Source: Serinibacter salmoneus (GTDB taxonomy: Bacteria; Actinomycetota; Actinomycetes; Actinomycetales; Beutenbergiaceae). Taken from it: a stretch of 64,000 nt of DNA. The notes under the pieces are model-generated. The model did not search any database. It was not told the DNA's origin and saw only the letters and a program-made list of their open reading frames with translations. The stretch covers positions 434,001 to 498,000 of the forward strand of contig NZ_PDJD01000001.1 of assembly GCF_002563925.1 (NCBI RefSeq), read 5' to 3'. Shown piece by piece: positions 27,711-35,944 of this stretch. The position numbers and the translations under genes are program-made. The first letter of the stretch is position 1. Each line of letters opens with the position of its first letter.

Positions 27711-28343
27711 CTACGTCTTGGATCCGCTGAGCGCGAGCGCCCCGCCCAGGCCGATCATCATGGTGCCGCCCGTCGCGCCCATCGCCGAGACCCGGCGCGG
27801 GGACCGAGCGAACCAGGTGCGCGCCGTCCCGGCCGCCAGCGCCCACGCGCCGTCGCACACGACGCCGATCGCCTGGAAGATCAGCCCCAGCACCAGCAAC
27901 TGGGCCCAGACCGGCCCGGCGGCGGGGTCCACGAACTGCGGCAGGACGGCCACGAAGAATGCGATCGTCTTCGGGTTGGTCACCCCGACCACGAACGCCT
28001 GGCGCAGCAGCGCTGCGGAGGTCGCGGGGGTGCGGGTGGCTCCTGGCAAGTGAGCGTCGCGGTGCCGGATCGCCTGGATGCCCAGCCAGATCAGGTATGC
28101 GGCACCGACGAGTTTCACCGCCGTCAGCGCCGTGACGGATGCGGCGACGACCGCCCCCACGCCGAAGGCCACCGCGAGGATCGCGGGCAGTGCCCCGAGG
28201 GCGTTCCCGAGCACGCTCAGCACCCCCGCGCGCCGACCGTAGGCGATCGAGCGACCGACGATGAACAGCACGCTCGGCCCGGGGATCAGGATGAGCACCA
28301 CGGAGGCGAGCACGAAGGTCAGCAGGGTGTCCACGGGGACCAT
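27711..28343 (-). CDS. LysE/RhtB-family amino-acid exporter
   Basis: 210 residues with about six membrane helices. The opening LASVVLILIPGPSVLFIVGR carries the PGP motif of the LysE/RhtB family; VTNPKTIAFFVAVLPQFVDP in the middle is equally typical. Proteins of this family export amino acids or related metabolites across the plasma membrane. Substrate cannot be predicted. It lies 45 bases after the peroxidase gene and before the asparaginase gene, all on the minus strand. Confidence 0.92.
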   Translation of the reverse strand: MVPVDTLLTFVLASVVLILIPGPSVLFIVGRSIAYGRRAGVLSVLGNALGALPAILAVAFGVGAVVAASVTALTAVKLVGAAYLIWLGIQAIRHRDAHLPGATRTPATSAALLRQAFVVGVTNPKTIAFFVAVLPQFVDPAAGPVWAQLLVLGLIFQAIGVVCDGAWALAAGTARTWFARSPRRVSAMGATGGTMMIGLGGALALSGSKT

Positions 28344-28388
28344 GGCAGCAGGGTACGCCCAGCGGCGAGGGCGCCCCGGAGCCGTTCC

Positions 28389-29636
28389 TCAGAAGAGGGT
28401 CTCGCCGATGTAGCCGCCCTCGCGGCACCCGGGCGGGATCGCGAACACGGCGGAACCGATCGGCGTCGTCCACTGGTTCAGCAGGTCCAGCTCGTCGAGG
28501 CGCTGCTGCACGGGCACGAACTGCGCCACCGGGTCGGCCTGGTACGTGGTGAAGATCAACCCGGAGCGCGAGGTCTCACCCGGGCCCGGGGTCTCGTCGT
28601 AGTTGTACCCGCGCCGGTAGAAGCGCTGGGAGGTGTCAGCCGATCGTGCCCGCCGGATGTGCGCCTCCGCGGCGATCACCGGGAACCCGAGCGGGCCGAC
28701 CGCCTCGAAGTCCGGCTCGTCGTGCTCGGCGACTCCGGTCAGCGGCGCCCCGGTCTCCAGGGTGCGGCCCACCGATTCCTCCCGGCCCTCGCGGGCGAGG
28801 TCATCCCAGGTCTCCATGTCCATCGCGATCCGCCGGATCACCAGTGACGTCCCGCCCGCGAGCGGCCCGTCGGCGATCCACACCAGGTCGGCGAAGTCCT
28901 CCGTGCCGGGGACCAGATTCACGGTGCCGTCCACCTGGCCGAACAGATTGCGCATGGTGCTGCCCTGCGGCCGGCTGCCGTAGGCGTGCCGGAAACCGTG
29001 CTGCTGCCACCGCTGGGTGGCGAAGGAGCGGGCGCTCTTGAGCAGCGAGCGGGTGGCGTGCGCGATCGTGACGGGGTCGTCCGAGGCGACCTCGATGAGC
29101 AGGTCGCCGTCGCTCCACTCCGCCCGCAGCGCGTCGATCCCGAACGCGGGCAGCGGCGCCAGCCAGGCGGGCGATGCCGCCCCGGCACGTTCGAGCAGGC
29201 CGGGCCCGAACCCGAAGGTGATCGTGAGCCGCGAGGGGTTCTGCGCGAGTTCGGGCTCCATGTCCGCCAGCGCGCCCCGCCCCTGGGTGAGCCGCTCGGC
29301 GTCCGAGGTCAGCAGGCGCATGAGACGGCCCAGTGCCTCGGCATCCACGCCCTCGTGCAGGTCCAGGGCGAGGTAGGTGGAGTGGGCCTGTGGGCTGACG
29401 CTCACCCCGGCCTGGTGCGCACCGTAGAAGGGGACGACGGCGGAACCTCGCAGTCCCGCCGTGTCCTGCGTGGGCTCGGCCGGGCCGGAGCCGGTGGTGT
29501 CGGCGGGCTTGGCAGGACTGGCAATGGCGTCGGCGCCGAGGGCGATGGCTGCGCCCCAGCCGGCGGCGGCTCCCCCGAGGAGGAACCGCCGACGGCTGGG
29601 ACCCCGCCGTGCATCGTGGTCAGCGGGGTAGGACAT
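28389..29636 (-). CDS. efeB: Tat-exported Dyp-type peroxidase (EfeB/DtpA-like)
   Basis: 415 residues. A twin-arginine signal (RRRFLLGGAAAG, about residues 15-26) directs the folded haem enzyme out of the cytoplasm. The dye-decolourising peroxidase domain has the GXXDG motif (FGQVDG) with the distal Asp, the proximal haem His region (EAHIRRAR) and FTTYQADPVAQFVPVQ, PIGSAVFAIPPG near the end. EfeB proteins act with EfeUO in iron uptake, but no efeU or efeO is here; instead PCuC and CopC genes precede it with ATGA overlaps. That linkage resembles the Streptomyces DtpA copper-trafficking locus, so a role in periplasmic copper/haem chemistry is likely (inference). Confidence 0.93.
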   Translation of the reverse strand: MSYPADHDARRGPSRRRFLLGGAAAGWGAAIALGADAIASPAKPADTTGSGPAEPTQDTAGLRGSAVVPFYGAHQAGVSVSPQAHSTYLALDLHEGVDAEALGRLMRLLTSDAERLTQGRGALADMEPELAQNPSRLTITFGFGPGLLERAGAASPAWLAPLPAFGIDALRAEWSDGDLLIEVASDDPVTIAHATRSLLKSARSFATQRWQQHGFRHAYGSRPQGSTMRNLFGQVDGTVNLVPGTEDFADLVWIADGPLAGGTSLVIRRIAMDMETWDDLAREGREESVGRTLETGAPLTGVAEHDEPDFEAVGPLGFPVIAAEAHIRRARSADTSQRFYRRGYNYDETPGPGETSRSGLIFTTYQADPVAQFVPVQQRLDELDLLNQWTTPIGSAVFAIPPGCREGGYIGETLF

Positions 29637-30253
29637 CAGTGGTCGTGGTCGCTGTGGTCGTCGCCGTCCTCGTGGTCATGGTCCATGTCCATGTCCTCAC
29701 CGGCGTACTCCTCATCGGCGCCGGTGAACTCCCGGGCAGAGGTCACGAAGGTGACGGTGGAGCCGTCCTGCAGCTCCAGGGTCACCTCGACCTCGTCACC
29801 GGGAAGGATCGGCTCCGTCAGGCCCATGAACATCAGGTGGTTGCCGCCCGGCTCGAGGAGGAGCTCCCCACCGGCCGGGATGGTGAACCCCTCGACCTGC
29901 TGCATCATCATGCTGTCCTCGCTCATGACGGTCTCGTGCAGCTCCATGGTGGTGGCGGCCGGGGAGGAGACCCCGATCACCTGGAGGTCGGCGTCCGTGG
30001 GGTTCACCAGGGTGCCGAACGCCGCCGTCATGCCCGTCTCGGCCGCCTTGGTCCAGGCGTCCTGGAAGGTCAGGGTGGCGTCCGTCGCCTCACCGGCGTC
30101 ATCGGTGGACTCGGTGGGCTGCGCGGACTCGGTGGTCTCGGTCGCCTCGGCGCCGTCGGCACTGGACTCGCCGGAGGAGCAGGCGGCGAGGGTCAGTGCC
30201 AGCAGGGCGGCGCCGGCTGTGGCGGTCACGTGGCGGGTGCGAAGGAGGGTCAT
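29636..30253 (-). CDS. pcuC: PCuC-type periplasmic copper chaperone, lipoprotein
   Basis: 205 residues. Lipobox LAAC follows a signal peptide, so it is a surface lipoprotein. After a Thr/Glu/Ser linker comes a PCu(A)C cupredoxin-like domain with the copper ligands: MELHETVM, then MQQVEGFTIPAGG and NHLMFMGL (the H(M)X10MX21HXM-type pattern). The C-terminus is an extra acidic, His-rich tail (MDMDHDHEDGDDHSDHDH) that should bind additional metal. PCuC proteins deliver Cu(I) to oxidase CuA/CuB centres or other cuproenzymes. Translationally coupled on both sides (CopC upstream, Dyp peroxidase downstream). Confidence 0.93.
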   Translation of the reverse strand: MTLLRTRHVTATAGAALLALTLAACSSGESSADGAEATETTESAQPTESTDDAGEATDATLTFQDAWTKAAETGMTAAFGTLVNPTDADLQVIGVSSPAATTMELHETVMSEDSMMMQQVEGFTIPAGGELLLEPGGNHLMFMGLTEPILPGDEVEVTLELQDGSTVTFVTSAREFTGADEEYAGEDMDMDHDHEDGDDHSDHDH

Positions 30254-30909
30254 GTCGTCTCGATTCGGGTTGTGCGGTGGCGGATGCGCCGGACCGCGAG
30301 GATGAGGGCAAGGGCACCGAGGCCCGCGAGTGCACCGCCGCCGCCGACCACGAGGGTGCGTGCGAGGGGCGGGAGCGGGCCGATGGTGCCCGTGGCCGCC
30401 TGGGTGGCAGCCGCGTCGGAACGGTCGTCGGACTGGTCGTCGTCGTGGTCGCCGGAGGGTGGGGGGTTTGCTGTTGCCTGACCAGAGGCCTCCGCCGGGC
30501 CCGTGTCGGGCTGCGCCGTCGGCCGATCGCCGACGTCACCCACGGAGAAGGGGACGACGCCCGAGACCGGGTGTCCGTCGGAGGAGACGATGCGCCAGCG
30601 CACGTCGTAGAAGCCGTCCTCCAGGTCTGCGACCTCGACCCTGACATCGGGGCCGGCGATCGTGATCGCACCGGCGTGATCGGCGCCGTCGAGGTCGGTG
30701 ACCATGACCGTGGTCCCGATGTCCAGGGCGTCCCCGGACATCGTGAGGACCACCTCGGCCGGCGGCGTCGGGAGTGCTTCCCCGGCGGCCGGAGTGGAGG
30801 CGATGAGCTGGTCGTGGGCAAGGCCGGCGGGGGCGAGCACGAGCGAGGCCGCGGCGAGGACGCCGAGGCCGAGGGTCGTGCGCACCGCCCGCCACAGGCG
30901 TGCGGGCAT
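30250..30909 (-). CDS. copC: CopC-domain copper-binding protein, membrane-anchored
   Basis: 219 residues from the ATG at 30909; the longer open frame upstream overlaps the next gene and is not used. A signal peptide ends in GLAHDQ, giving a mature N-terminal His (His after AxA), a known Cu(II) ligand in CopC. The CopC/YcnJ-type beta domain spans about 32-130 (STPAAGEALPTPPAEVVLTM, VRWRIVSSDGHPVSG with the second His). A Pro/Asp linker and one C-terminal membrane helix (TLVVGGGGALAGLGALALIL) follow. It holds copper at the outer face of the membrane. Second gene of the copper operon. Confidence 0.9.
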   Translation of the reverse strand: MPARLWRAVRTTLGLGVLAAASLVLAPAGLAHDQLIASTPAAGEALPTPPAEVVLTMSGDALDIGTTVMVTDLDGADHAGAITIAGPDVRVEVADLEDGFYDVRWRIVSSDGHPVSGVVPFSVGDVGDRPTAQPDTGPAEASGQATANPPPSGDHDDDQSDDRSDAAATQAATGTIGPLPPLARTLVVGGGGALAGLGALALILAVRRIRHRTTRIETT

Positions 30910-30947
30910 GGCTGCTTCTCTCGGGAGGACGCCCGGAGGGCGTGAGG

Positions 30948-31568
30948 TCAGGCGGTCAGCAGCACAGCGGGTGGACCACGGCCCGGGCGCGTGCGCACGA
31001 GTAGCGCACCGGTCAGCATCACGGGCGGCGCCGTGGGGATCGTGGCGCCGGCGTCGGGGGTCACGGGCCGCCAGGCCCGCAGCAGGCGGAGGACGGCGAA
31101 GGGCCGGGTCAGGCGGGCAGCGGTGCGCAGGAGCACCTCGCCGTGGTGCAGGGCCGCCGCGGTGATGCAGGCGGCCGCGACGTGTGCCAGCAGCATCGGC
31201 GCACTGGACTCGACCTGGTGAGCGGTGTGGGAGGCGCCCGCAGCATCGAGTGCCGCGCGGATGCCCGCCGCGGTGTGGGCCGCGTGTCCCGACGGGGTCT
31301 GCTGGGCGGCGGACGGGCTCGCGGTGCCGAGGGAGAAGGTGAGGTGGAAGAGGCCCTGGGCGGCGCTCGCGGCGAGCATCGCCGGTACCAGGCGGGGGCG
31401 GGGCCCGATGAGCGCCGAGGCCAGCACCCATGTCAGCAGCAGTGGCAGAACGACACCGAGGGGGCTCGCCATGCTGCCGCCCGCGAGAACGTGGGCGGTG
31501 AGTGCGACGAGGACAGCGAACGCGGCGACCGCGAGGCCGCGCAGTATCCGCACACCGTCCATCGACAC
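30948..31568 (-). CDS. Membrane protein of unknown function heading the copper operon
   Basis: 206 residues from a GTG at 31568 (an ATG two codons inside, 31562, is equally possible; no clear ribosome site). Four or so membrane helices: LAVAAFAVLVALTAHVLAG, VVLPLLLTWVLASALIG, ARLVPAMLAASAAQGLFH-type and MLLAHVAAACITAAAL. A His-rich loop between helices (GHAAHTAAG, ASHTAHQ, ALHHGE) could bind metal. I do not recognise the family; its place ahead of copC suggests a role in copper handling. 38 bases separate it from copC. Confidence 0.8.
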   Translation of the reverse strand: MSMDGVRILRGLAVAAFAVLVALTAHVLAGGSMASPLGVVLPLLLTWVLASALIGPRPRLVPAMLAASAAQGLFHLTFSLGTASPSAAQQTPSGHAAHTAAGIRAALDAAGASHTAHQVESSAPMLLAHVAAACITAAALHHGEVLLRTAARLTRPFAVLRLLRAWRPVTPDAGATIPTAPPVMLTGALLVRTRPGRGPPAVLLTA

Positions 31569-31629
31569 AGTCTGTCAGGTCCGGGCCTTGCCCGGCACCC
31601 ACGCCCGCCGGTCGGGATGCGGGCGGGGC

Positions 31630-32040
31630 TCAGGGAGCCAGGAGGGTGTCCACGTGGGCGGACAGAGCGGTGTGCGCCTGCGCGGCGAGTCCGTAGTAGG
31701 CCCATCGGCCGCGTTGCTCCCGGGTGAGGATCCCGGCGTCCACCAGCACCTTGAGGTGGTGGGAGACGGTGGGTTGCGCGAGGCCGATCGGCTCGGTGAG
31801 ATCGCAGACACAGGCCTCGCCGGCGCTCGCGCTCGCCACCAGGGAGACCAGCCGAAGGCGCGTGGGATCGGCGAGGGCCTTGAAGACGGTGGCGAGTTCG
31901 GCAGCGTGAGCCGCGGGCATCGCAGTCGTGGTGCCGCAGCAGGAGGGGGCGCTCCCCGATGTGGCGGCTGCGACGGTGGTGCCTGCCTCGCGGCTCGGTG
32001 CGGCGGTCATCCCGCCATCTTGCCACGTATCGACGGTCAT
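31630..32040 (-). CDS. arsR: ArsR/SmtB-family metalloid-responsive repressor
   Basis: 136 residues from the ATG at 32040; an ATG at 32010 (residue 11) is an alternative. Winged helix with VFKALADPTRLRLVSLV and the recognition helix LAQPTVSHHLKVLVDAGIL. Candidate As(III)/Sb(III) ligands: ACVCDL (Cys77, Cys79) and an N-terminal Cys34-Cys35 pair, an arrangement like Corynebacterium glutamicum ArsR, where an N-terminal Cys pair works with a Cys of the other subunit. It is divergent from the flavoprotein gene and should repress both from the shared region. No ArsB/Acr3 pump or ArsC reductase is nearby. Confidence 0.9.
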   Translation of the reverse strand: MTVDTWQDGGMTAAPSREAGTTVAAATSGSAPSCCGTTTAMPAAHAAELATVFKALADPTRLRLVSLVASASAGEACVCDLTEPIGLAQPTVSHHLKVLVDAGILTREQRGRWAYYGLAAQAHTALSAHVDTLLAP

Positions 32041-32042
32041 GG

Positions 32043-32073
32043 ATATAGTGATCGAATTGATGTACGTCTATAT
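32043..32073. promoter_or_regulatory. Candidate ArsR operator between arsR and the flavoprotein gene
   Basis: ATATAG (32043-32048) and CTATAT (32068-32073) are inverted copies framing an AT-rich core (TGATCGAATTGATG), the only AT-rich stretch in the area. Only 45 bases separate the two start codons, so a protein bound here would cover both promoters. Matches the general form of ArsR/SmtB operators. Confidence 0.55.
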
Positions 32074-32085
32074 GAGGAGCGTGTG

Positions 32086-33495
32086 ATGGTCCGTCGGGAC
32101 GAACTGCCCGTGGTCGTGATCGGAGCGGGACCCGTGGGTCTGGCCGCCGGGGCACACCTGCGTGAGCGCGGCCTGGAGGTCGTGATCCTCGAAGCGGGCC
32201 AGGCGGCGGGCGCCGCCGTGACCGACTGGGGCCACGTGCGCCTCTTCTCCCCGTGGCGGTACAACATCGACGCCGCGGCGCGCCGCCTGCTCGACGGTAC
32301 CGGTTGGGTCGAGCCCGACCTGGAGGAGAACCCCACCGGCGCCGAGTTGGTCCGCGACTACGTGGCGCCGCTGGCTGCGACCGCCGAGCTCGCGCCCCGG
32401 ATCCGGTACGGCCACCGCGTGATCGCGGTGACCCGGGAGGGCGCCGACCGCACCCGCTCCCTCGGCCGCGAGCGCCGTCCCTACCTGGTGCGTGCCGTGA
32501 CCGCGGCGGGTGAGACGGTCGACGTGCGTGCCCGCCACGTGCTGGACGCCTCCGGTACCTACGGTCAGCGCAACCCCGTCGGCGACGGCGGAATCCTCGC
32601 CCCGGGCGAGGCCGACGCCCGGGCGCGCGGCGCCGTCGTGGGTCCGCTGCCCGACGTGCTCGCCGCCGACCGGGAACGGTTCGCAGGTCGCACCACCCTC
32701 GTGGTCGGCATGGGTCACTCGGCCGCCAACACGCTGCTGTCCCTCGTGGAACTCGCCGAGCAGGCCGAGGGCACCCGGATCCTGTGGGCCATCCGCGGCG
32801 GATCCGCCCGCCGGCTCTTCGGCGGCGGCGCGGACGACGAACTGCCCGCCCGCGGACTTCTGGGCACCAAGCTCAAGGAGGCCACCGAGTCCGGTCGCCT
32901 CACCCTGATGAAGTGGGTCACCATCACGCAGATGGCGCCCGAGGGGGAGGGCACCCGGGTGCGTGGCCTCGCCCGTGAGGAGGCCTTCGAGGTCACGGTC
33001 CACTCGATCGTGGACGCTACCGGCTTCCGGCCCGACCTGGACATGCTGCGTGAGGTCCGGCTCGACCTGGACGCGGTCGTGGAGTCCCCGTCCGGCCTGG
33101 CCGAGCTCATCGACCCGAACCAGCACTCCTGCGGCACCGTGCCGCCGCACGGTGAGCCGCTGCTGCGTCACCCGGACGACGGCTTCTATCTCGTCGGGAT
33201 GAAGTCCTACGGGCGTGCGCCCACCTTCCTGCTCGCGACGGGGTACGAGCAGGTGCGTTCCGTGGCCGCGGCGCTCGCCGGTGACAGCGAGGCGGCGGGC
33301 CGGGTCTCCCTGAGTCTTCCGGCGACCGGGGTGTGCTCCACGGACCTCGCCGAGGAGGCGGGGCAGGCCGAGGCGGACGCCGCGGGCTCGGGTGGCTGCT
33401 GCGGCGGCACCCCGGAGGCGCCCCGATCCGAACCGCAGCCGGTGGGCTTCGCCAGCGGCGTCCCCCACGGCCGTTCACTGGACCTGCTGACCTGA
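32086..33495 (+). CDS. FAD-dependent oxidoreductase divergent from arsR
   Basis: 469 residues from the ATG at 32086, six bases after GAGGAG; the open frame upstream runs antisense to arsR and is not real. Two Rossmann dinucleotide motifs: GAGPVGLAAG (FAD, residues about 13-22) and GMGHSAANTL (NAD(P)H, about 207), as in flavin monooxygenases and thioredoxin-reductase-like enzymes. The tail carries Cys417 and a vicinal Cys438-Cys439 (SGGCCGG), a likely metalloid or redox site. Similar flavoproteins accompany arsR in ars loci (ArsO-like), but this one is longer and has the extra Cys tail. Substrate unknown; arsenical oxidation or detoxification is inference from context. Confidence 0.85.
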   Translation: MVRRDELPVVVIGAGPVGLAAGAHLRERGLEVVILEAGQAAGAAVTDWGHVRLFSPWRYNIDAAARRLLDGTGWVEPDLEENPTGAELVRDYVAPLAATAELAPRIRYGHRVIAVTREGADRTRSLGRERRPYLVRAVTAAGETVDVRARHVLDASGTYGQRNPVGDGGILAPGEADARARGAVVGPLPDVLAADRERFAGRTTLVVGMGHSAANTLLSLVELAEQAEGTRILWAIRGGSARRLFGGGADDELPARGLLGTKLKEATESGRLTLMKWVTITQMAPEGEGTRVRGLAREEAFEVTVHSIVDATGFRPDLDMLREVRLDLDAVVESPSGLAELIDPNQHSCGTVPPHGEPLLRHPDDGFYLVGMKSYGRAPTFLLATGYEQVRSVAAALAGDSEAAGRVSLSLPATGVCSTDLAEEAGQAEADAAGSGGCCGGTPEAPRSEPQPVGFASGVPHGRSLDLLT

Positions 33496-33530
33496 GATCA
33501 CGCACTGCGACCGCGGCAGTATCGGCGGTG

Positions 33531-33569
33531 ACGGAGGCCCCGCTCGGATGATCCGAGCGGGGCCTCCGT
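33531..33569 (+). terminator. Terminator after the ars-linked flavoprotein gene
   Basis: A perfect inverted repeat: 19 bases at 33531-33549 (ACGGAGGCCCCGCTCGGAT) pair with 33551-33569 around a single central base, so the real loop is about five bases. It starts 35 bases after the stop codon. Strong hairpin without a long T-run. Confidence 0.8.
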
Positions 33570-33769
33570 GGTGTCCGGCTCCCTCTCACCACGACGGCGC
33601 GGGCGCCGGTGCCCAACCGCTCGCAGTCCGAGGTGGCCAGGGGCTACGCTCGTCGGGACGTGATCTTCTCCCCCCATGGCTGAAATGCAGGAAATGAACA
33701 CCACCCTGGCCGCGCCGACCATGCACCCCTGTGGTGCCCGCGAGATTGGTAACCACAAGGGTACGTGAT

Positions 33770-35944
33770 ATGCGAAACGTCTGGACAGTATTCAAGCGGG
33801 ACCTCCTGCGCATCCTGAGAGTTCCCATCGCGGCGGTGATCGTGGGGGGTGCGCTCGTCACCCCCGCCCTGTACGCGTGGTTCAATATCGTCGCGTTCTG
33901 GGACCCGTTCGACAACACGCGGAATCTGGATATCGCGGTAGTGAGTCTCGACGAAGGGGCCTCGAACTCGTTGGCGGGTGACGTCAATGTGGGTGAGCAA
34001 TTGATCGATCAGCTCAAGGACAACCACGATCTTGGTTGGCATTTCTTCTCGACGAAGGACGAGGCGTTGGACGCGGTCCGTAGCGGTCAGAGTTACGCCG
34101 CGTTCGTTGTCCCGGCCTCCTTCAGCAAGGATCTGCTGAGCCTCACGACGGGCGACTTCACGCGCCCGGAGCTCCTCTACTACGTGAACGAGAAGCTCAA
34201 TGGTGTGGCACCGGAGATCACCGATACCGGTGCCACCACGGTGCAGACCCAGATGGTCGACGCGTTCACGCAGCAGGTGGCCGACGCCGTGGCGACCGCC
34301 GTCCGCGAGGGCGGGGGGGAGGTCGAGCAGGAACTGCTCGACCTGCAGGACTCGGTCATCGCGGACCTGGAGGATGCGGCCGATGTGATCGGCGAGGCGC
34401 GCGAGCAACTCGTGCAGTTGCAGGCAGACCTGGCGGCGGCGGTGGGTGATGTCGAGGGCGATGTGACGGCGCTGGAGAGTGTGGAGCGCGCGCTGGGCGA
34501 TCTCACCGGGACTCTCAACAGCGCGAGTTCCCTCGCCGCACAGGCGCAGTCCGAGCTCATCCGCCTTGCGGGGGTGACGACCACGGGCTCCCTGCTCGGC
34601 GCGACAGGTGTGGGGGAGGCCACCTCCGGCGTCCTCGCCGGGGTCGGCGAGGTGAGTGCGGCGGTCGCCTCGCTCGCGGCGTCCGTTCAGGCTCAGGAGA
34701 CGCTCGTGGGAGAGGCCGAGACCCTCCTGCGTGGCTTGGAGGATCAGCTCGAGGAGACCGGCGGTGCGCTGTCGGCCCTGGAGGGTGATCTGGGCGCGGT
34801 GCAGGACGACATGGGGGTGGCCATCGCCGATGTGAGGGCACTCAGTGGCGCCGCCCTGTGGCAGGACCTCGATGCGCTCACCTCGCTCGACCCGGAGCAG
34901 ATCGCCAGTTTCATGGCGACGCCGGTCGAGGTGGACCAACACACGCTGTTCGAGACGAAGACCTACGGGTCGCAGATGGCCGCATTGTTCATCAATCTCT
35001 CGCTGTGGATCGGAGCCTTTGTGCTCGTCGTCATCCTGCGGACCGATGTGGACAAGGACGGTGTTCCTGGGCTGACGCAGCGCCAGGCCTATCTCGGGCG
35101 GTGGTTGCTCTTCGCGGCGCTCACCGTGGCCCAGGCCACGACCCTGACCATCGGGAATCTCATCATCGGCGTGCAGCACACGAGCGCGATCGCCCTGTTC
35201 GGGACCTCGATCTTCATCGGGCTGAGTTATCTGAGCGTCATCTTCGCATTGTCGGTGACATTCGGTTACATCGGGAAGGGATTGGCGGTGATCCTGGTGA
35301 TCATGCAGATCCCGGGCGCCTCGGGGATCTACCCGATCCAGCTCATGCCGGAGTTCTTCCAGGCGCTGTACCCGTGGTTCCCGTTCACTTATGGAATCGA
35401 TGCGATGCGTGAGGTGATCAGTGGTTTCGCCGGCCTCGCGTACTGGCGCTACACCGGCATGCTGCTGGTGTTCGTGGCGGTCGCGTTCCTCCTGGGACTG
35501 GTCCTGCGCAGGCATGTCGCCAATCTCACCCGACTTTTCACCCAGCAGGTAGCCCGCACGGAACTGTTCACCTCCGACAGCGGCGAACCGGACGGGCCGG
35601 GCTTCCGGATCGGCCACGTGCTGGGGGCTCTGGCCAACCGCGCGGGGTACAACGAGGCCCTTGCGCGGCGGGTGAGGCGCTTCGGGCGCGTCTACGGCAC
35701 GGCACAGCGCGCCCTGGTGGCCAGCGGCGTCGTGGGTGCCCTCGCGCTGCCGTTCCTGGGGCTTGCGTTCCCCGATGCCAAGGTCACGCTCGTGGGCCTG
35801 TGGATCCTGTGGCTGATCCTCGTGTTCGCTGCCTTGGTGACGCTCGAGTACCTACGGTTCAGCCTGCAACTGTCGACCAAGGTGGGCCAGATGTCCGAGA
35901 CTGAACTCAAGAGTGAACTGACCGAACTCGAGGCTCAGCGATGA
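33770..35944 (+). CDS. YhgE/Pip-family membrane protein, first of a tandem pair
   Basis: 724 residues from the ATG at 33770 (AAGGG nearby). Topology: a membrane helix near the N-terminus (about 15-40) followed by YAWFNIVAFWDPFDNTRNL, a hallmark of YhgE/Pip proteins; a long extracytoplasmic coiled-coil-rich region (about 45-400); then about five or six C-terminal membrane helices of ABC-2-permease type (about 410-590) and a final hydrophobic pair. Family members include phage-receptor proteins and the type VII secretion component EsaA, but no WXG100 or EccC gene is here. Its third codon positions look less GC-rich than neighbours (GAT, AAT, TTG frequent). The stop overlaps the second copy (ATGA). 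Confidence 0.88.
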   Translation: MRNVWTVFKRDLLRILRVPIAAVIVGGALVTPALYAWFNIVAFWDPFDNTRNLDIAVVSLDEGASNSLAGDVNVGEQLIDQLKDNHDLGWHFFSTKDEALDAVRSGQSYAAFVVPASFSKDLLSLTTGDFTRPELLYYVNEKLNGVAPEITDTGATTVQTQMVDAFTQQVADAVATAVREGGGEVEQELLDLQDSVIADLEDAADVIGEAREQLVQLQADLAAAVGDVEGDVTALESVERALGDLTGTLNSASSLAAQAQSELIRLAGVTTTGSLLGATGVGEATSGVLAGVGEVSAAVASLAASVQAQETLVGEAETLLRGLEDQLEETGGALSALEGDLGAVQDDMGVAIADVRALSGAALWQDLDALTSLDPEQIASFMATPVEVDQHTLFETKTYGSQMAALFINLSLWIGAFVLVVILRTDVDKDGVPGLTQRQAYLGRWLLFAALTVAQATTLTIGNLIIGVQHTSAIALFGTSIFIGLSYLSVIFALSVTFGYIGKGLAVILVIMQIPGASGIYPIQLMPEFFQALYPWFPFTYGIDAMREVISGFAGLAYWRYTGMLLVFVAVAFLLGLVLRRHVANLTRLFTQQVARTELFTSDSGEPDGPGFRIGHVLGALANRAGYNEALARRVRRFGRVYGTAQRALVASGVVGALALPFLGLAFPDAKVTLVGLWILWLILVFAALVTLEYLRFSLQLSTKVGQMSETELKSELTELEAQR

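Follow-up and report, generated by a model that had tools for sequence, protein, structure and literature searches.

The window, by which we mean the whole 64,000-nucleotide stretch of Serinibacter salmoneus DNA under study, carries an ArsR-type repressor gene and a flavoprotein gene that stand head to head, in divergent orientation (Table 1). An earlier note on this DNA had described the pair and the two cysteine sets of the repressor (34-35 and 77/79), and the sequence confirms both. It had likewise pointed to Cys417 and Cys438-Cys439 of the flavoprotein; all of these are present, but its list left out Cys349, a residue kept as strictly as Cys417. These four are the only cysteines of the flavoprotein.

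Table 1. Features of the arsR-flavoprotein locus and of the ars operons found elsewhere in the genome (window positions, unless a genome position or a fetched locus is named)
Feature	Position	Strand	Remarks
ArsR/SmtB-family repressor gene	31630..32040	-	136 aa; HTH_metalloreg and HTH_5 over cut-off
Predicted sigma-70-like promoter of flavoprotein gene, TTGCCA-18-TATAGT	32020..32049	+	consensus match only; encloses box 1
Operator-like box 1, ATCGACGGTCATGGAT	32029..32044	.	between the -35 and -10 elements of the predicted promoter
Operator-like box 2, ATTGATGTACGTCTAT	32056..32071	.	arsR-flavoprotein intergenic region
FAD/NAD(P)H-type flavoprotein, putatively ArsV-like	32086..33495	+	469 aa; ATG at 32086, stop ends at 33495; from Pyr_redox_3, conservation, model and fold matches
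Cys349 codon	33130..33132	+	in invariant D-P-x-x-H-S-C-G; C in 105/107, 2 gapped
Cys417 codon	33334..33336	+	T-G-V-C, at the end of the folded core; C in 105/107, 2 gapped
Cys438-Cys439 codons	33397..33402	+	C-terminal tail, predicted disordered from 434; C in 99/107 and 95/107
trxB(arsT)-acr3-arsR:arsC-arsC operon	about 154.7-158.6 kb of genome; L145 5688-9577	-	paired box before it, genome 158534-158565
arsD-arsA operon	2.31 Mb of genome; L266 7108-9352	+	two strict boxes upstream, genome 2313043-2313092

We investigated the conservation of these cysteines in 107 homologues, which comprise all the places identified when a sample of 297 genomes from the order was scanned, together with three plasmid loci; the family was present in 96 of the 297 genomes. 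Three fragments were retained among the 107 (L117, 72 aa; L153, 330 aa; L154, 215 aa), a second piece of L153 was dropped, and alignment A2 excludes L101 and L107. The three fragments come from genomes with broken or partial copies of the gene, showing an early stop, a split frame and a remnant, respectively.

The earlier note had proposed examining whether the cysteine tail is kept in homologues, and this was found to be the case (Table 1), the remaining sequences having seven gaps and one alanine at Cys438, and nine gaps and three glycines at Cys439. A CC pair lies within the last 70 residues of 97/107 homologues. In a scan of named genomes, which are partly those of the 107-sequence set, the best 80 of at least 587 confirmed stretches contained the HSC motif in 80/80 cases, TGxC in 79/80 and the CC tail in 76/80. 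Among 15 plasmid homologues that we chose from Actinomycetota, Pseudomonadota and Bacillota, all contained HSC and 13 the CC tail, the exceptions having CGC (Priestia) or cysteines that stand apart (Mammaliicoccus). Throughout the family the tails bear cysteines, often as several CC pairs, and vary in length and sequence. Judged from these alignments, the cysteine pattern is conserved more than chance would give; Cys349 and Cys417 are its fixed members, and the tail appears real, with a loose sequence. Conservation in the tail is matched or exceeded by that in the stretch from K373 to F381 and in the flavin and dinucleotide motifs.

The flavoprotein matched Pyr_redox_3 in Pfam (49 bits, cut-off 30), with no row for the FMO-like family PF00743 at E 0.001. 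It passed no specific model among the 21 NCBIfam families matched, the best being ArsO (53.6 bits, cut-off 425), and these matches included no ArsV model. Membership of ArsO (NF040505) was rejected on this score, the match covering residues 10-145 only; YpdA/Bdr (32.9 bits, cut-off 339.9), thioredoxin reductase (18.5 bits, cut-off 343.45) and MerA, which was not among the 21 families, were rejected as well. The active-site cysteine of YpdA sits in the first dinucleotide motif, and the column that we took for this position holds V17 in the flavoprotein and Val (63), Ile (22), Gln (19), Thr (2) or a gap (1) across the 107 homologues, with cysteine in none. Thioredoxin reductases carry a CxxC redox pair ahead of their C-terminal FAD segment, and MerA has a redox cysteine pair close to the N-terminus; ahead of residue 349, none of the 107 contains a CxxC, and the flavoprotein itself has no cysteine at all. 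The absence of both the CxxC and the YpdA-type cysteine speaks against a classical disulfide reductase.

A structure model made with 77 sequences (pLDDT 87.3, pTM 0.86) has a confident core, with pLDDT below 50 over residues 434-469, predicted to be disordered, and low values also at 376-380. Its nearest solved fold is the bacillithiol disulfide reductase YpdA/Bdr (Z 29.5, rmsd 2.7, 318 aligned residues, 18% identity), from which the flavoprotein differs in the cysteine position and the family score given above. The class B flavin monooxygenase SMFMO (4a9w) is similar in fold too (Z 25.0, rmsd 3.7, 308 aligned residues, 24% identity), but the flavoprotein lacks the PF00743 match at E 0.001 and has the extra cysteine motifs and the tail. 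We read the flavoprotein from its sequence as a two-Rossmann protein with four cysteines, two of them invariant. An invariant K373-x-x-G-R-A-P-T-F stretch begins 24 residues after Cys349 and, by analogy with the fold, should border the flavin.

ArsO of the Streptomyces FR-008 arsRBOCT cluster resembles the flavoprotein in being an actinobacterial ars-cluster flavoprotein with a similar first dinucleotide-binding stretch, but the two score only 22.7 bits against each other. Three genes away from the gene annotated as ArsO, the FR-008 plasmid carries a relative with 48% identity to the flavoprotein, so that one cluster holds both as distinct proteins. Plasmids of Streptomyces, Rhodococcus and Paenibacillus repeatedly carry, close to members of the family, another NAD(P)/FAD-dependent oxidoreductase, a shorter one of 350-356 aa (L236 7808-8878, minus strand; L238 10610-11650, plus; L246 2163-3212, plus), and the FR-008 copy of it scores 53.5 bits against the flavoprotein.

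The repressor passed both the metalloregulator model HTH_metalloreg NF033788 in NCBIfam (97.4 bits, cut-off 55) and HTH_5 in Pfam (58.8 bits, cut-off 22), and we read it as a standard metalloid-type ArsR. Its cysteines are Cys34, Cys35, Cys77 and Cys79, in the two sets Cys34-Cys35 and Cys77-x-Cys79; a start at Met11 (at 32010) is likelier, to judge by homologues such as L043, and would shift these numbers by ten. The vicinal N-terminal cysteines align with Cys15-16 of Corynebacterium glutamicum ArsR (6j0e), but the third ligand of the latter, Cys55, falls on a non-cysteine position, and a CVC is found here instead. The CxC corresponds to two of the three helix cysteines of R773 ArsR (site positions of both proteins as given in the accessible parts of PMC11868830 and PMC13236881). 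The four cysteines are no exact fit to either of the published three-ligand sites compared, those of 6j0e and R773. Both sets are nevertheless usual among ArsRs adjoining the flavoprotein family: parsing succeeded for 90 of the 96 distinct ArsRs encoded divergently next to the enzyme, and 76 of these 90 combine the N-terminal CC with a CxC beyond the core, six having the CxC alone and eight neither set, while five of the six unparsed sequences also carry both.

We next consider the neighbourhoods of the relatives, fetched as about 7 kb either side and shorter at contig ends. An arsR-type gene was identified in 99/107 stretches, adjacent and divergent in 64, so that the homologues are not mostly away from arsR, the other outcome that the earlier note had set against its reading; together with the conserved tail cysteines, this supports the link to metalloids that it had drawn. 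The genes acr3 or arsC were found in 80/107 stretches. In the named loci (the best 80 of at least 587), arsR was present in 78/80 and acr3/arsC in 68/80. An arsR-flavoprotein pair with no acr3/arsC in the stretch, as in the window, occurs in 20/107. Neither arsR nor acr3/arsC was found in 6/107; five of these keep the operator-like box introduced further on, and L154, the last of the six, is the 215-residue remnant.

The family spans Actinomycetota, Pseudomonadota and Bacillota. In 18 annotated plasmid loci of our own choosing, ArsR is present in 15, and ArsR or another arsenic-labelled gene in 17, the exception being a Roseomonas locus with a PadR regulator and an MFS gene. An efflux-type MFS gene lies downstream, directly or past one small frame, in 12 of the 18, and in relatives from Ensifer adhaerens and a Paracoccaceae species the flavoprotein gene stands between arsR and an MFS efflux gene. 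No MFS gene was found beside the flavoprotein gene in the window. Counts of GNAT and MFS/ArsK neighbours made by tblastn at 40 bits are loose, and carry no weight here.

The predicted promoter of the flavoprotein gene was the sole promoter-like match in 31500-33800 (mean of 0.0 in shuffles). The operator-like boxes follow a strict pattern, ATYGA-N6-TCRAT, or a looser one, ATYGA-N6-TNNAT. The box was first spotted by eye, in the very loci counted here, so that its semi-independent tests are confined to the counts made genome-wide, in operon-type loci and in loci with no arsR. At least one strict box was present at -250..+40 in 55/62 distinct divergent-arsR loci, against an expectation of 0.005 per stretch, estimated from the remainder of these loci, and the looser box in 59/64 adjacent-divergent loci (background 0.016-0.020 per stretch). 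In operon-type loci, with arsR elsewhere in the stretch, the box was found at the arsR promoter in 31/35 and directly before the flavoprotein gene in 0/35. In loci with no arsR in the stretch, it precedes the flavoprotein gene in 6/8 and is missing from 2/8, which suggests that in the former the flavoprotein may be controlled in trans. The loci that keep one or two boxes in this way are L138, L140, L141, L073, L122 and L051.

Within the window, the looser box occurs at 32029 and 32056 and at no other place (0.30 expected; 4/100 shuffles reached two). Genome-wide, the looser box gives 18 matches, which fall on 14 places, as against one match for the pattern read backwards. Six of the 14 places form three pairs less than 50 bases apart, with 0.003 expected, and all three pairs lie before ars genes: at the arsR/flavoprotein locus, before trxB-acr3-arsR:arsC-arsC, and before arsD-arsA. 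The other eight are unpaired. The arsD-arsA locus was found through the box, with no prior knowledge of it. Seven other ArsR-type loci are present in the genome; the box scan of four of these (L149-L152) gave none, and in the remaining three (L146-L148) no ars gene was recognised by eye.

The trxB-acr3-arsR:arsC-arsC, arsD-arsA and arsR-flavoprotein loci thus apparently form one regulon. A single ArsR may serve all three, although the arsR:arsC fusion could serve its own locus. Dispersal of ars genes is known already from Thermus thermophilus, as far as the accessible part of PMC5658604 describes it.

The earlier note had stated that no ArsB, Acr3 or ArsC accompanies the pair, and had supposed that the enzyme may act on its own. 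The statement holds within the window, where ArsB, Acr3 and PF01451-type ArsC have no match, but the genome encodes acr3 and arsC about 310 kb away. The search for ars genes elsewhere, which the note itself had proposed, identified the trxB-acr3-arsR:arsC-arsC and arsD-arsA operons; since both share the paired box with the arsR-flavoprotein locus, independent action is not supported. The thioredoxin reductase of the acr3 operon scores 393.7 bits (cut-off 343.45), ArsD 110.5 (cut-off 90) and ArsA 755.1 (cut-off 650). ArsD has a CC tail that resembles that of the flavoprotein. In the acr3 operon, ArsR is fused to an ArsC-type domain. At arsD-arsA we noticed no adjacent arsR, and a reading frame for an IS-like transposase precedes the operon (L266 5943-6917, minus strand).

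Acr3 has a single match in the genome and the LMW-phosphatase/ArsC-type family PF01451 five, all of them outside 434001-498000 (the window); the ArsC search covered this LMW-phosphatase type, as distinct from the glutaredoxin type PF03960. There was no genome match to ArsB, ArsH, ArsI/CadI or ArsP. Five matches to the ArsM model NF008823 were all below cut-off (best 67.4 bits, cut-off 263), and PF13489 is too general as an ArsM probe.

A metalloid function of the pair is strongly supported. We consider that the flavoprotein is probably an ArsV-type flavin monooxygenase of trivalent organoarsenicals and antimonite, its chemistry being deduced by comparison, and that the pair forms one module of an arsenic regulon. 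ArsV/ArsW occur in an ars operon with an MFS efflux gene alongside. ArsV is reportedly an NADPH-dependent flavin monooxygenase, the work being that of Zhang et al. 2022 (Environ Microbiol 24:752) and Chen et al. 2021 (23:7550). The available portions of PMC11719878 and PMC10080717 describe it as oxidising methylarsenite and antimonite. Compared by description and not by sequence, the likeness lies in a flavin enzyme in ars clusters, including the relatives between arsR and an MFS gene noted above; the flavoprotein of the window differs in being divergent from arsR, with no adjacent MFS gene, and this missing partner counts against the assignment.

Under the ArsV-type reading, ArsR would sit on the boxes and shut off the flavoprotein gene, and perhaps the other two loci too, until Cys34-35 and Cys77/79 take up As(III), Sb(III) or methylarsenite and ArsR comes off the DNA. 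The flavoprotein would bind FAD and NAD(P)H, and its disordered Cys438-439 tail would capture the trivalent metalloid together with Cys417, and hand it to Cys349, placed near the flavin. Reduced flavin and O2 might then oxidise the metalloid to its pentavalent, less thiophilic form, in the manner described for ArsV; by this analogy, oxidation is plausible. Arsenate reduction and As(III) export would remain the job of the other two loci, with the flavoprotein module covering organoarsenicals and antimonite. Oxidation of the ArsV kind fits best because the genome has no match to ArsH, ArsI or ArsP, and no ArsM over cut-off, so that nothing else searched for would handle these compounds. Against an oxidase stand the nearest solved fold, YpdA, which is a disulfide reductase and not a monooxygenase, and the many relatives inside acr3-arsC operons, where oxidation of inorganic As(III) would undo the work of ArsC.

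These same observations favour a thiol-type reductase, in which NADPH electrons would pass through the flavin to Cys349, Cys417 and the tail, so as to reduce either an adduct of arsenic with a thiol or the disulfide that ArsC leaves behind. Mercuric reductase MerA uses a C-terminal cysteine pair, which the tail may resemble, and many relatives adjoin arsC. However, the homologues lack a CxxC before residue 349 and have Val, Ile, Gln or rarely Thr at the presumed YpdA cysteine position, the acr3 operon of this genome already encodes a thioredoxin reductase, and the hosts in Actinomycetota, Pseudomonadota and Bacillota differ in their low-molecular-weight thiols; we consider this reading unlikely.

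Still less probable, in our view, is that the tail serves as a metalloid buffer or chaperone site, passing As(III) to ArsD/ArsA-Acr3, with flavin chemistry secondary. Its predicted disorder, the retention of cysteines in tails of varying length and sequence, often with several CC, and the similar CC tail of ArsD would agree with such a role, but conservation of the flavin and dinucleotide motifs and of K373-F381 is no lower than that of the tail, and arsA or arsD was not noticed at many enzyme loci (uncounted). That the substrate is copper, mercury or some other thiophilic metal could be suggested by the neighbouring CopC and PCuAC families, encoded on the arsR strand, and by merA beside one Mammaliicoccus relative and near one in Afipia. 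Given the frequency of Acr3/ArsC at the family's loci (80/107, and 68/80 among the best 80 of at least 587), and a box common to the acr3 and arsDA loci, we regard it as very improbable.

Returning to the ArsV-type reading, the flavoprotein most likely belongs to the ordinary ars repertoire, in which it is under-annotated. A bolder version would be that Cys349, Cys417 and the disordered tail deliver the metalloid to the flavin with no redox disulfide, combining a MerA-like capture tail with monooxygenase-type chemistry, in a family that differs, in part or altogether, from characterised ArsV and that in this lineage shares regulation in trans with the acr3 and arsDA loci by way of the common box; this is conceivable, and we hold it to be rather doubtful. 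We found no description of the cysteine signature in the open-licence literature, and it may still be published.

The family is very common (96/297 genomes of the order; at least 587 confirmed stretches), yet in the records consulted it bears generic names alone, those of an FAD- or NAD(P)-binding oxidoreductase. With the conserved cysteine set, calls of this arsenic gene gain a signature that can be tested, and scattered genes of the regulon can be predicted from the shared box, which led here to arsDA at 2.31 Mb. If the proposed chemistry is true, it would add an oxidative route for organoarsenicals or antimony to reduction and export.

Finally, a GC-rich inverted repeat, seen by eye, lies 3' of the flavoprotein gene (33532-33568), with no T run and no predicted terminator. 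Just beyond arsR and on its strand (27711-31602, minus), we identified genes for a membrane protein (30948-31568, no Pfam match), CopC, PCuAC, a Dyp-type peroxidase and LysE, a possible copper or metal neighbourhood that is perhaps partly read through from arsR.
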